The notes beneath the pieces were generated by a model, which did no database searches, had not been told where the DNA came from, and saw only the letters and a program-made list of their open reading frames with translations. The translations under genes were made by a program, and so were the position numbers. Positions 3,106 to 7,512 of a stretch of 64,000 bases of DNA are shown here, piece by piece. The number at the start of each line of letters is the position of its first letter. The stretch's first letter is position 1. The DNA comes from Schizochytrium sp. TIO01 (Eukaryota; Sar; Bigyra; Thraustochytrida; Thraustochytriidae), in contig SMSO01000036.1 in assembly GCA_004764695.1 (NCBI GenBank), positions 82,001 to 146,000 of the forward strand, written 5' to 3'.

Positions 3106-3693
3106 ATGAAGACTGATAAGGAGATGGTGGAGTACACCATGAAGAAGTGCCAAGAATATCTGACCAAGATTCAAATTGCCGAGGAGATGGGCGATGCATA
3201 CTGGATTGAGCAAAAAACGGCCATGCACAAGTCAAGTGCTGAAGAACGGGGTGAGGAGTTCTTTTGTATTCCAGATAATGAAAAGGCCTCATTCTTTCAC
3301 TACCTGGCTATTCCCTTAGACAAGTCCAAAACAAGCGCAAACCAGTTCTACAAAGACAACGAAGGTGACATCACCTTACTCGAGGCCATGCTCGACAAGC
3401 TCAAGGTTTTCTTCCGCTTATGGTATCTCAATGATGCAACTGAGGATGAAAAGCACAACATCGAGTACGTGTATTTTGGGTTTTATCTCCCTCCGCATAA
3501 CTCACACCCCCGAGCAATTTTTCACGCCTTGACCACGCCCCTCAACGACAAGCCCGAGAACCTCGACACGGATCACACTGACGAGTGGAAAGATATGCCG
3601 GTTTTTATAGATATCCTCAAGGGCAAACCTATAAACCCGAACGAGCCCTATACCAAGTACACTGTGGAGGAGCTCATAGTACTTCCTCAATAA
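3106..3693 (+). CDS. Orphan protein, 195 aa
   Basis: Not recognised. ATG with A at -3 (AAACATGAAG), uninterrupted reading frame and codon use like the neighbouring genes support a real single-exon gene. The product is soluble and acidic, with no signal peptide or membrane segment. The first ~30 residues (MKTDKEMVEYTMKKCQEYLT onward) look like an amphipathic helix. The middle is rich in aromatics (FFRLWYL, YVYFGFYLPP), and the C-terminal third is rich in Pro/Asp/Glu. No catalytic motif was identified. It lies downstream of and parallel to the dehydroquinate synthase, with 875 bp between them and no sign of co-transcription. Confidence 0.65.
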   Translation: MKTDKEMVEYTMKKCQEYLTKIQIAEEMGDAYWIEQKTAMHKSSAEERGEEFFCIPDNEKASFFHYLAIPLDKSKTSANQFYKDNEGDITLLEAMLDKLKVFFRLWYLNDATEDEKHNIEYVYFGFYLPPHNSHPRAIFHALTTPLNDKPENLDTDHTDEWKDMPVFIDILKGKPINPNEPYTKYTVEELIVLPQ

Positions 3694-4499: not shown

Positions 4500-4790
4500 A
4501 TTGCTTAGTTTTTAATAAATAAATAGCTGATAACTAGTTCCGACTAGAGTTTTAATAAGTAGTTATCTGACAATTCGTTCTGACTGGGGTTTAAGCTTTA
4601 AATAGCTGATAATTAGTTGCGATTGGACTTTAATAAGGAGCAAATAGCTGATAATTAGTTGCGATTGGGATTTAATAAGCAAATAACTGATAATTAGTCC
4701 CGAGTGGGGTTTAAGAGTTAGAGTTAGCTGACGATTAGTTCCAGTGGAGTTTACGAATGGATTAGCTGACAATTATTTCCCATTGAGTGA
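4500..4790. repeat. Array of about seven diverged ~40 bp repeats
   Basis: A unit of the form TAGCTGATAATTAGTTGCGA followed by TTGGGNTTTAATAAGCAAA recurs about every 40 nt. Copies start near 4525, 4568, 4603, 4647, 4684, 4725 and 4763. The two central copies are nearly identical over about 30 nt; the outer ones are more diverged. The array lies 0.55 kb beyond the nuclease stop codon, on the side where an IS607 element would have its right end. Whether it belongs to the element, to its target or to a separate minisatellite cannot be told from sequence alone. Confidence 0.8.
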
Positions 4791-5116
4791 CTTATTATGG
4801 GTTCAGTGATTCATCAGAGACTATTGATAATACTTCTGTAAGTATATCAGAGGATGATCTTATGCTTACCATTGTGAGAGCTGATGTGAGTGAAGACCTA
4901 TCGAGTACGACGCTCAGTCAGCTTTTCTTCGGTGAAACACATTTTCCTTGTTGTGGTGATAACGTCGACAGTAGCACTGCATCGACTGAAGATCTAGTAC
5001 GCGTCCCGATGTCATGTAGTCTAAGATTGGCAAATAACACATACATCCCTGTAGCTATTTTTTGGTACATCGAGAGTGATACCTTGTATTTTATATTATT
5101 TAAACTTGATACATAA
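4787..5116 (+). other. Possible coding fragment of 109 codons
   Basis: An open frame begins right after the ~40 bp repeats with a GTG; the first ATG is at 4862, leaving about 84 residues. The conceptual product is Ser/Thr/Asp-rich at first (SDSSETIDNTSVSISEDD) and hydrophobic at the end (VAIFWYIESDTLYFILF). It has no recognised domain. It could be a remnant of a gene next to the transposon, or chance. Low confidence. Confidence 0.25.
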
Positions 5117-5269
5117 GATACACAAGTCGTACTTTGTTTATATCATGAAAGGTCCATCTCACTTTTACGTGTACATAGAATTGCCTTTTTAAAATAATTA
5201 AATAACAAGGATTCAGCTTTATTGTCTTTAATGTTACTCTTAGATTTTAAACTATAAAATTTGCAAAAC

Positions 5270-5360
5270 TTGCATTTCATAGAAGGAGCTAAGACTCCAT
5301 CACGAGCTAGTTAGACTAACCCGCGACTCAATGAAATGATTTTTTTAAATCATGTCCTTG
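5270..5360 (-). ncRNA. Candidate guide-RNA scaffold / right end of the IS607-type element
   Basis: Directly at and after the nuclease stop codon (- strand) there are three inverted repeats. ATGATTT/AAATCAT (5336..5353, 4-nt loop) overlaps the stop; GTTAG-t-CTAAC lies at 5310..5320; and GGAG/CTCC with a 6-nt loop lies at 5285..5298. Between them is TTGAGTCGCGGGTTAG. In TnpB and Fanzor systems the guide RNA covers the 3' end of the nuclease gene and the transposon's right end, with the guide taken from flanking DNA. Position and fold fit that, but the exact boundary and expression are inference. Confidence 0.45.
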
Positions 5361-6793
5361 GATAGGTAGCGTAAAAGGATGCCTCTTGCGGCATGGACAT
5401 CACGGTCTGCTACATGGTTGCACTTGGGATTAGGGCATTGGAAAATCTTGGATGCCCCGAGGTTATGGTGGAGGGTACCACACTCATTGCATGTTTTGGA
5501 AGTGTAACTTTCTTGGCAAAGAACAAGCTTGCACCACGGGAACATCTCAGCCTTATGAATGAGAGCCTGGCGGAACCCAAAATGGGACCAACGACACATC
5601 ATTCGAATAGACTTCTTGGAGATCCGTCGCTCCATCCTCCTGCTCATCTTAGAGGTTTCGAATTTGGGCAGGAGAATAACACGATAGTTTTCACAAAGCC
5701 AAAGCGCGAGCTTGCGGTGAATCTCAGTGATCTTGTTCTTGATCTTGAGTTGGGCGCGATAGAAGGCGCGCTTCAAGGGGGTGTTGAAATTGTCTTTATC
5801 ACTGGATGCAGTTTTCTTTTTATCAATGCTGCTTTGGATCTTATCAACGCGGCGACAGAGATAGAATATGGTTCTAAAATCTTTCCCTGTGCCCCATTCA
5901 ATGGCGCGGCCATCGGCGTCATACATCGTCTGAAACGAGCGAACACCCGGGTCTAGAGCAATGACACCATGGTGCGCCTTGGGTGCCTGGTCCATTGGAC
6001 GCTTTTTTTCTTCTCGTAAGAAGCAGAAGTAGACATGCCCAAGGCGATTCATTTGCACACGCATGGCGTTCGAAATCTGGTCGGGGAACTTTTCTTTACG
6101 TATTCGGAATTCTTTTAGAAAGTTGGAGGTCTTTGATTTCTTCGCATTCCAGGTACGTGCATTCACTTCGAAAATCTGTGATTCGTCACGCTTGGTCCGA
6201 AACTTATAGAAAGATCGCTCATGGACTTTCTTTTGTACAGCGAGTTCTTCGTTTTTGGCTCGTCCCGAGTTAAGAGCCTTGAAGAAATCCCGAATCCCGG
6301 AATCACGGATAGCCTGTGGGACCTCGACAACCCATTTAGGAGGATCATGTCTTTCTTTATATCGGACGGCATTCAGTTCTCCACCAAGGGCCATATGTGT
6401 TTTTGGATTCCCATCTTCATCTACCAAAACCTGCTTCGTCTTACGATCCTTTTTGATGCACGCTTCTTGATGCAATTTGATGGCTTCTTTCTCGCCCTTC
6501 GCCATGTCTCGGTGAAACGCAACGCCAATATTGTAGGCTCTTCTAGTGACACCAAACCATTTAAGCAACTGTGTACGTTGATCTTTAGTAGGATATACCC
6601 TAACCTTTCTGGCACGGACAAGGTTATATTCTTTCTTGATGGTCTTGCGCGCCTTCGTGCGAGCTCGCTTCTTCCTCGCTGCGTCGTCGCCGTCTATTTT
6701 GCGCTGCTCGTTTTCCGTGATGCGATGCCACAAAGACGGTGATGATTCCGAGGAGGTCTTTGGTGAAGGTGTCTGAGTCTCCGGCATGTGCAT
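5345..6793 (-). CDS. tnpB: TnpB/Fanzor-type RNA-guided nuclease
   Basis: An intact 482-aa product from the ATG at 6793. The frame is open back to 7282, but the upstream part is antisense-like overlap with tnpA. Order of features: a basic, NLS-like tract (KKRARTKARK, about residues 40-54); the typical TnpB start VRARKVRVYPT then WFGVTRRAYN; RuvC-I IALDPGVRSF (Asp 281); RuvC-II ILLPKFETSKM (Glu 379); a CxxC...CxxxxC zinc ribbon (Cys 435, 438, 453, 458); and RuvC-III ADRDVHAARGI (Asp 465). All three acidic residues and four cysteines are present, so nuclease activity is plausible. Relatives use a guide RNA from the element's right end to cut DNA at the donor site and favour element retention. 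Pairing with an IS607-type TnpA fits the Fanzor2 group. Its stop codon lies in a hairpin that may belong to the guide RNA. Confidence 0.88.
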   Translation of the reverse strand: MHMPETQTPSPKTSSESSPSLWHRITENEQRKIDGDDAARKKRARTKARKTIKKEYNLVRARKVRVYPTKDQRTQLLKWFGVTRRAYNIGVAFHRDMAKGEKEAIKLHQEACIKKDRKTKQVLVDEDGNPKTHMALGGELNAVRYKERHDPPKWVVEVPQAIRDSGIRDFFKALNSGRAKNEELAVQKKVHERSFYKFRTKRDESQIFEVNARTWNAKKSKTSNFLKEFRIRKEKFPDQISNAMRVQMNRLGHVYFCFLREEKKRPMDQAPKAHHGVIALDPGVRSFQTMYDADGRAIEWGTGKDFRTIFYLCRRVDKIQSSIDKKKTASSDKDNFNTPLKRAFYRAQLKIKNKITEIHRKLALWLCENYRVILLPKFETSKMSRRMERRISKKSIRMMCRWSHFGFRQALIHKAEMFPWCKLVLCQESYTSKTCNECGTLHHNLGASKIFQCPNPKCNHVADRDVHAARGILLRYLSKDMI

Positions 6794-7322
6794 CTTGGCC
6801 GTGTACCACGAGTTTGACATTTTTTCTTTCGAAAAGGTGTTCCAAGAGGTCGACTGCGATTCGCGCAAGTCGGTCGCGGTGCATGACCACAACTTGGCCG
6901 ATTCCGCCGCGGTCACAGGCGTCCAGTAGGGAGCACAGACCTTGGCGTTTGAAATTGACCCCGCTACCGATGTCTTTGTAGACGGCGGAAGCATCTGGGT
7001 AGGCGCGCTGGAGATCGCCAACCTGGCGTTCGAGGTCCTCCTTTTGCTTGACCGAGGACACTCTGGCGTAGATAACGGTACATCCAGAGCTGCGTTGCTC
7101 GCGGCCGGTGGAACCGCAATCAAAGATGCGCTCAACATCGTCGCTGGCATAGATGCGCTTGCCTCCGGGGAAGCGCGCGAAGCGCACGCGTCCGCCATCG
7201 GCCCAGCCCCGAAGGGCGCTTGCCGAGACCCCAAACTTCCGGTGAAAGAACTTTGCTGGTTTGTATTCGAGGTTTGCTCCACTTGCAGTGTTTGGAGCTT
7301 GTCGGTTCCTCGGCCTCCCCAT
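6624..7322 (-). CDS. tnpA: IS607-type serine recombinase / transposase TnpA
   Basis: 232 aa with a good start (AAAATGGGG). Residues ~19-68 form the MerR-like helix-turn-helix typical of IS607 TnpA (YKPAKFFHRKFGVSASALRG ... GGKRIYASDDVERIF). Residues ~83-205 form the small serine-recombinase domain. The nucleophile is Ser89 in VIYARVSS, followed by DIGSGVNFKRQGL, the Arg-bearing VVVMHRDRLAR (about 145-154) and the C-terminal helix LLGIITVFVASHHGKR. The protein would excise and insert the element through a Ser-DNA covalent intermediate. After HHGKR it has an unusual ~27-residue tail with NRRRRRSEEE, resembling a nuclear-localisation signal. The last ~170 nt overlap the nuclease frame. No frameshift or missing residue is visible, so the element may be autonomous. 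Confidence 0.9.
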   Translation of the reverse strand: MGRPRNRQAPNTASGANLEYKPAKFFHRKFGVSASALRGWADGGRVRFARFPGGKRIYASDDVERIFDCGSTGREQRSSGCTVIYARVSSVKQKEDLERQVGDLQRAYPDASAVYKDIGSGVNFKRQGLCSLLDACDRGGIGQVVVMHRDRLARIAVDLLEHLFERKNVKLVVHGQDAHAGDSDTFTKDLLGIITVFVASHHGKRAAQNRRRRRSEEEASSHEGAQDHQERI

Positions 7323-7512
7323 TTTCTTATCTAACCTCTACTTCTTATCAATAACCTAACTAAACATAATATATGGTTAATATGAAACAATCACATCGAA
7401 ATATAAGTTATCGAACTTTTACGTTTTTTGATCCTGTTAATTTTCGTACATGACGAAACAAAAGCACCACAATAATAAAAAGCCTCATTCAAAAAACAAA
7501 ACTGATCAGAGA

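Follow-up and report, generated by a model that had tools for sequence, protein, structure and literature searches.

The 64,000-nucleotide (nt) stretch analysed here, referred to as the window (positions 82,001 to 146,000 of contig SMSO01000036.1, assembly GCA_004764695.1, of the thraustochytrid Schizochytrium sp. TIO01), harbors on its minus strand an IS607 transposon composed of a serine recombinase gene (tnpA) and a gene for a TnpB-type nuclease of the Fanzor2 kind (tnpB). An IS607 element with a Fanzor/TnpB-type nuclease in a protist genome had been proposed in an initial annotation made from the sequence alone, and profile, structure, tree and copy evidence bears this out. The extent given there, 5285 to 7400, is slightly short: homology among 20 fetched copies stops at 7430 and 5237, and the AG core dinucleotides lie at 7435-7434 and 5238-5237. 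The following features are distinguished (aa, amino acids; TAM, target-adjacent motif; reRNA, right-end element RNA).

5237..7433, minus strand: IS607/Fanzor2 element, from the left tip GAT to the right end ...CTAAG plus core AG (homology block, junction sequences, nested-copy empty site)
6624..7322, minus strand: tnpA, IS607 serine recombinase, 232 aa (Ser89, HRDRLAR; profile and structure matches)
5345..7198, minus strand: tnpB/Fanzor2 from the first tnpB-frame ATG within tnpA, 617 aa (frame open from 7330)
6624..7198, minus strand: stretch shared by tnpA and the N-terminal TnpB extension in the +1 frame, with PYW, LW and SWY motifs (stop depletion and controls, polymorphism by codon phase)
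5345..6622, minus strand: conserved TnpB/Fanzor2 core with RuvC D264 (DPG), E340 and D448 and zinc ribbon C418/C421/C436/C441
7434..7436, minus strand: CAG of the left flank, a predicted target motif and TAM whose AG (7435-7434) is the crossover dinucleotide
5237..5238, minus strand: right-end core dinucleotide AG (CTAAG-AG; AG in 15/15 family A rows of alignment A5)
5237..5365, minus strand: candidate omega/reRNA scaffold of four hairpins, comprising the tnpB 3′ end and the 3′ untranslated end, with host DNA below 5237 as the presumed guide

TnpA matches the Pfam Resolvase family over residues 83-216 (E 1.5e-19, above the cut-off) and possesses a MerR-type helix-turn-helix (HTH) region at residues 28-66, where the Pfam match stays below the cut-off. 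This arrangement of an HTH and a C-terminal catalytic domain is that of the IS607 family, and the matching solved structures are IS607-type transposases (ISC1904/ISC1926/IS1535, best E 3.9e-18). The catalytic serine and the arginine-rich loop pointed out initially are both present, Ser89 within YARVSS and R149/R151/R154 within HRDRLAR. As expected for IS607, terminal inverted repeats are absent, none of the 21 repeat pairs found joining both ends of the element.

The TnpB frame, here counted as 465 aa from 6742, matches the Cas12f1-like_TNB and HTH_OrfB_IS605 profiles, and its best solved relative by sequence is mimivirus L79 (PDB code 9b0l, E 1e-19). RuvC-I is formed by D264-P265-G266 and RuvC-III by D448, and the CxxC/CxxxxC zinc ribbon is complete, as had been noticed (C418-x2-C421 and C436-x4-C441). 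The RuvC acids named previously, Asp281, Glu379 and Asp465, correspond to D264, E362 and D448 in the present numbering and all exist; E362, however, is probably not catalytic. Its conservation is moderate, with E in 14 of the 24 rows in alignment A1 and 33 of the 48 in A4, whereas position 340 has E in 24/24 rows of A1 and E or D in 47/48 of A4. Because it is conserved far better than E362, E340 is most likely the catalytic RuvC-II acid, at the 'alternative' position of the Fanzor lineage; a repositioned RuvC-II glutamate is described for pro-Fanzors and Fanzors (PMC10711439). The window's TnpB thus shows the two Fanzor2 hallmarks of a DPG RuvC-I and an alternative RuvC-II acid, and in a 60-row tree it falls into a eukaryotic clade with an IS607 TnpA partner, likewise a property of Fanzor2. 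IS607 elements that bear Fanzor2 are known from giant viruses as well as from eukaryotes (Bao and Jurka 2013, PMC3627910), with a serine recombinase TnpA, a TnpB-like nuclease and no inverted repeats as here. The element is a member of this known kind; its new part is the probable overprinted N-terminal extension described below.

An open +1 frame across tnpA

Between 6787 and 6505, where the TnpB core would start, the tnpB frame contains no ATG, a lack that escaped the initial annotation. The frame is open from 7330 to 5345 and thereby spans all of tnpA, in +1 relative to it. For the window alone, synonymous shuffling gives a probability of 0.0046 for such an open frame, which is not compelling for a single gene, and therefore the DNA of relatives was gathered: 6 plus 17 loci from IMG/VR and, out of 275 confirmed genome loci, 80 whose titles are all cyanobacterial; the latter were obtained by a second contig scan with a bacterial alignment after a first one had given none. 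From these, 91 tnpA open reading frames (ORFs) were reduced to 74 of sufficient length, 73 accompanied by tnpB, and finally 27 representatives below 75% tnpA identity, window included.

In the 27 representatives the +1 frame of tnpA holds 12 stops, distributed over eight genes, while synonymous shuffles lead one to expect 119.1; the +2 frame of the same genes holds 374 (357.1 expected). The +1 frame is fully open in 19 of the 27, compared to 0.13 expected. By zone, no +1 stop is found in the last 120 codons (75.3 expected), one at 120-160 codons from the end (20.8 expected) and 11 farther away (22.8 expected). As controls, the last 350 codons of 24 tnpB cores contain 527 +1 stops (479 expected), 34 other ORFs contain 410 (406 expected), and 12 canonical annotated IS607 tnpA genes, with 152 against 149.6, exhibit no depletion. 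Judged against these controls, the second frame of the tnpA/tnpB pair is devoid of stops beyond chance, as is required of overlapping genes.

A second set of 15 loci provided four new DPG-type elements (L195, L196, L175 and L193), besides L194, which repeats L070, and L200, which gave neither class. In the four new elements the last 120 tnpA codons are devoid of +1 stops (14.3 expected), whereas nine tnpA genes without link to a DPG-type TnpB (two with DLG or DVG, seven for which no TnpB was found) contain 84 (94.6 expected). Since DPG-type elements are depleted and canonical or non-DPG tnpA genes are not, the open +1 frame appears, as far as sampled, to go with the pro-Fanzor/Fanzor2 lineage. 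In public annotation, L175 (964-2649, Microcoleus phage) is represented by the extended TnpB only and L193 (Trichormus) by the core TnpB only, neither with a tnpA. In Vibrio phage F88 (L177, 1188-2730) a TnpB with LDVG in place of LDPG and an SWF motif near its start adjoins a short tnpA; this may be an intermediate.

The extension persists where tnpA does not. Fourteen tnpA-less loci were scored, one of which (L144) failed the motif search; the remaining 13 correspond to about seven lineages, several being near-duplicates. In these 13 loci the TnpB ORF reaches 90-199 codons past the core, while the old tnpA frame carries 1-17 stops over the last 90-130 codons of the extension; 12 of them retain P[FY]W and 11 retain SW[FY]. 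Furthermore, among 25 representatives (two partial ones were left aside) four residues of the alternative frame, W, S, W and L, which start in window tnpA residues 133, 171, 172 and 144, respectively, are identical in all distant pairs, compared to 27-36% expected, and the excess of identity begins at about tnpA residue 118.

Within 13 protist copies, 38 of 575 sites of the overlap are variable, spread evenly over the codon positions (13/13/12) without an excess at the third. The tnpB core, in contrast, varies at 158 of 1276 sites with a third-position excess (44/44/70) and a ratio of nonsynonymous to synonymous polymorphism (pN/pS) of 0.40, the overlap being half as variable. The extended tnpB frame is open in all 13 copies, which were picked as full length, and tnpA has a stop in five. 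The predicted proteins P0002-P0011, P0014 and P0016 also include the extension, as does mimivirus L79, with the SWY motif.

With a probability of roughly 0.8, the block is read as a resident IS607 transposon whose Fanzor2 TnpB would carry about 120-190 additional N-terminal residues, encoded by a +1 frame that is overprinted on tnpA, a layout that would be ancestral to pro-Fanzors and Fanzor2. The sequence comparisons establish that the +1 frame is maintained; its translation, and initiation within tnpA, we infer. For the pro-Fanzor/Fanzor2 lineage as a whole, it is likely that an N-terminal domain with the motifs P[FY]W, LW and SW[FY] was born in the +1 frame of tnpA and has been retained from cyanobacteria and phages to giant viruses and protists, able to outlive tnpA and being the source of the 'disordered' Fanzor2 N-termini.

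Several observations weigh against an overprinted extension. One of the 34 control ORFs is fully open in +1 (0.0 expected). The excess of alternative-frame identity reaches z 27 in +1 but also z 15 in +2, so that relatedness inflates the result. Little variation (6/124) is likewise seen in the first 41 codons of tnpA, which the overlap counted from its ATG does not cover, hence low diversity alone is no proof of overlap. Outside the test of tnpA-less loci, L102 encodes a TnpB of 367 aa without extension, and L133 and L171 are broken. In L125 and L129 a stop separates extension and core; second TnpB frames of 397 aa are present in L159 and L163 and further pieces in L086, and L120 and L074 reach contig ends.

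Start of translation, spread in the genome and competing explanations

In 27 of 27 representatives an in-frame ATG or GTG is located at least 90 codons before the tnpA end, and all in-frame ATGs amount to 100 compared to 80.5 expected. In the 11 protist copies examined, the first ATG in any frame after that of tnpA is always in the tnpB frame, at offset 124 in eight and 172 in three, which suits leaky scanning. A transcript ORF from MMETSP (P0001, 601 aa, 99.2% to copy L011) includes the extension and begins at the ATG of offset 172. Less compatible with simple leaky scanning are the strong context of the tnpA ATG (AAAATGG) and the one or two ATGs that also lie upstream. Nor is any single start codon conserved, ATG being weakly enriched (12 versus 4.3) in one column near the aligned tnpA start.

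The lack of a universally conserved internal start codon would suit programmed frameshifting in tnpA, by which a TnpA-headed TnpB fusion, perhaps with the TnpA HTH domain, would be produced, and the strongly constrained zone (last 120-160 codons) indeed begins roughly past the HTH domain. Such frameshifting is unlikely, since in-frame ATG or GTG codons are available in every representative, the next ATG after that of tnpA is in the tnpB frame in all 11 protist copies, and the extension is retained where tnpA is not intact.

The genome comprises 64.06 Mb in 37 contigs. A sulfite oxidase encoded by the host shares 82% identity with its counterpart in Hondaea fermentalgiana across 75% of the length, which places the host among the thraustochytrids. 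A search of the genome yielded 105 tnpB-matching stretches including the window's own, in places several per locus, with 91 of 336 candidates scored; this number lies far above chance, so that the further copies which the initial annotation proposed to look for exist. Fourteen stretches, the window's among them, are full-length and stop-free with 90-100% identity, and the others form a long tail of partial or stop-containing stretches with identities down to 28%. tnpA is matched by at least 154 stretches, and a comparison of the two lists gives eight loci, window included, in which both genes are full-length and stop-free. Hence this is a resident eukaryotic IS607/Fanzor2 family and not a contaminant, and its sequences show that it spread recently. 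A potentially active, autonomous element, as had been suggested, agrees with the recent spread and the eight intact loci, whereas its present activity we infer only; similarly, the nuclease is of Fanzor2 type as an RNA-guided nuclease ortholog should be, with RNA-guided cleavage as a prediction.

Five near-identical copies (L011, L012, L013, L023 and L049) at different sites share one repeated piece of 294 bp, located within codon 28 of tnpA. The piece is a retroelement-like repeat with 36 further matches, some pairs of which are 5.2-5.4 kb apart; on account of this repeated, retroelement-like nature a simple spliceosomal intron is rejected, although a GT-AG splice is conceivable. Because the shared insert occurs in copies at different sites, these five copies spread with a broken or altered tnpA, TnpA probably being supplied by other copies. 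In at least six loci tnpA codon 129-138 is joined to tnpB codon 335-347 (e.g. C7:537266-537907 and C30:9282901-9283606), and judging from these junctions they are non-autonomous deletion derivatives. The insert-bearing copies and the short derivatives are what would be expected if the family had spread recently with a dead nuclease and were maintained only by transposition in trans. This is improbable in view of the pN/pS of 0.40 in the tnpB core, the extended frame that stays open in all 13 full-length picks while five have a stop in tnpA, and the retention of D264, E340, D448 and the zinc ribbon.

As the host is a eukaryote, the TnpB ATG missing at its usual place could also be accounted for by a spliced transcript encoding TnpB, with the open +1 frame as a by-product; this is very improbable, as the same frame is open in cyanobacteria and phages, which are without spliceosomal introns, and as the ORF of the MMETSP transcript passes through the extension. 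An accident of tnpA codon bias, which the window alone (P about 0.005) and the one open control ORF might suggest, is scarcely credible, being contradicted by the 27 representatives, the same-locus genes and the canonical IS607 controls. The suspicion that bacterial-type genes on a eukaryotic contig reflect bacterial contamination or mis-assembly can practically be dismissed on account of the 105 matching stretches over many contigs with graded decay and differing flanks, the nested repeat piece common to many other places in the genome, and a tree position apart from cyanobacteria.

In that tree (midpoint root) the window's row pairs with the MMETSP protein with support 100/100, and the pair groups with 11 more rows, one of them labelled Durusdinium (95/83), within a wider 24-row group (98/88) that includes two fungal rows, a further row labelled as a gammaproteobacterial metagenome-assembled genome, and one viral row. 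The cyanobacterial clade, which includes two viral and three ungrouped rows, is separate (100/99). Thus, the window's row lies outside the cyanobacterial clade. The initial annotation had named, as an outcome that would refute it, a tight grouping within a single bacterial genus in the absence of further eukaryotic copies; this is excluded. Two proteins labelled Durusdinium trenchii (P0014 and P0244) resemble thraustochytrid proteins (sulfite oxidase 80%), which suggests thraustochytrid DNA in that assembly.

Ends, crossover core and 3′ RNA

The copies comprise a young family A and an older family B, which differ in their core dinucleotide. In 15 of 21 family A copies CAG begins 6-9 nt ahead of the conserved left end, and the right ends read CTAAG-AG, with AG in all 15 family A rows of alignment A5, into which 30 of 44 right ends were aligned. 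In family B the corresponding left position reads TG in 9 of 15 readable copies (16 were found), and 14 of its 15 rows in A5 have TG at the right end. A 2-bp serine-recombinase crossover predicts just this, a core that switches between AG and TG at the two ends in concert. A GG core as in Helicobacter IS607 and ISXfa1 was considered and rejected, family A having AG and family B TG; because PMC4058570 speaks of one specific crossover dinucleotide, GG for IS607, GG is taken as element-specific and not family-defining. From the left flanks, CAG is predicted to be the target motif as well as the TAM. Judged by eye, the base right after the right core is A or T in those family A copies that were displayed. 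CAG is separated from the conserved left end by a tip of 3-6 nt (7431-7433 in the window), which differs among near-identical family A copies, as if joined imprecisely.

The nested copy L021 is inserted in an older family-B element, within whose left end it lies, and provides one empty site, a check that the initial annotation had called for. Its flanks, joined as GGAGCAG followed directly by ACACTA, without the tip and with a single AG, align gap-free through the junction to the family-B left-end profile and score 87.2 bits, compared to 63.4 and 4.6 for either side alone. At this one nested site no target duplication beyond the 2-bp crossover is found. A search for empty sites by joined flanks, performed wholly or partly for seven of 14 copies prepared, resulted in one candidate (C6:1538282-1538409, 76%). 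Two findings do not fit this description of the ends: six of the 21 family A copies are without CAG, and in 14 copies the words common to the two 20-nt flanks are longer than after re-pairing of flanks (mean 5.0 nt versus 3.9 nt, 0 of 300 as high), which a simple no-duplication model does not predict; the excess is due to 8-nt shared words in L019, L021 and L025.

The last 129 nt of the element fold with -37.9 kcal/mol (z -5.4). The structure was folded from the window sequence and pairing was then counted over 30 copies of families A and B: 87.6% of the cells are paired, compared to 32-46% in slid controls, and the helices are mostly kept across both families. The clearest compensatory change is one pair in helix 6, which is G-C in 13 and A-U in seven copies. 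The case for conserved pairing is diminished by letter shuffles, which the observed value barely exceeds (87.6% versus 86.9%, 6 of 500 reaching it). Covariation is weak, with double-sided changes at seven pairs (a value reached by 162 of 500 shuffles) and in 13 cells (11 of 500); RNAalifold on A5 returns seven pairs only, and an Rfam scan of 5100-7500 in the window gave no match up to E 1. This 3′ RNA is likely to be an omega/reRNA.

The element would operate as follows. TnpA would release it in circular form and integrate it at CAG through an exchange at the AG dinucleotide, the ends and the one empty site being established by comparison. By analogy to the family, Fanzor2 would bind the structured 3′ RNA, with host DNA past the right end as the guide, and would cut the reclosed donor site beside CAG, whereupon repair would restore the element. 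The nuclease itself would be translated from within tnpA in the +1 frame, in the protist perhaps by leaky scanning.

Relation to known systems

N-terminal regions are called highly variable by Bao and Jurka (PMC3627910), in whose main text the terms 'overlap' and 'start codon' are absent. The cyanobacterial pro-Fanzor TnpBs (Yoon et al. 2023, PMC10711439) share the DPG RuvC-I, the alternative RuvC-II acid and the IS607 TnpA partner with the window's element; the present analysis finds the same open +1 frame in them, at 26-31% identity to the extended window protein (alignment A4), and 'overlap' is likewise absent from the main text of that report. Mimivirus L79, the closest solved relative, differs in being viral; for its structure 9b0l no paper was found in a literature search covering mostly open-licence sources. 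NlovFz2 and MmeFz2 (Saito et al. 2023, PMC10432273) are Fanzor2 proteins for which RNA-guided cleavage has been shown, whereas here it is predicted. They are described as having N-terminal disordered regions of 96 and 61 aa; an origin of these regions in the +1 frame of tnpA is unstated in the accessible portion of that paper.

Helicobacter IS607 (PMC4058570, PMC6188088) resembles the present element in its serine transposase and the 2-bp crossover, and it lacks a target duplication, as the present family does at the one nested site; but its core is GG in contrast to AG or TG here (PMC6188088). The two IS607 ORFs are said in PMC6188088 to overlap often, a remark to be set against the 12 canonical tnpA genes without +1 stop depletion. 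No statement of a lineage-wide tnpA/tnpB overlap was found in the literature searched, which was mostly open-licence and partly seen, so that this absence is weak.

Fanzors are under development as eukaryotic genome editors with the focus on the nuclease core. If the nuclease starts inside tnpA, its N-terminal part is real, conserved and easily misannotated, work that starts the TnpB of this lineage at the core may use a truncated enzyme, and tnpA and tnpB are not independently evolvable or recodable. The overlap would constitute a long same-strand overlapping gene pair common to bacteria, viruses and a eukaryote, and a concrete, testable feature for why one IS607 lineage entered eukaryotes. 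In addition, the protist family offers a natural example of subfamilies that differ, at both ends, in their crossover dinucleotide, together with a predicted TAM (CAG).

Elsewhere in the window, an ORF of 195 aa at 3106-3693 has a weak match to DcpS_C, slightly below the family cut-off, and directly downstream of the element self-similar, tandem-like repeats occupy 4520-4785.

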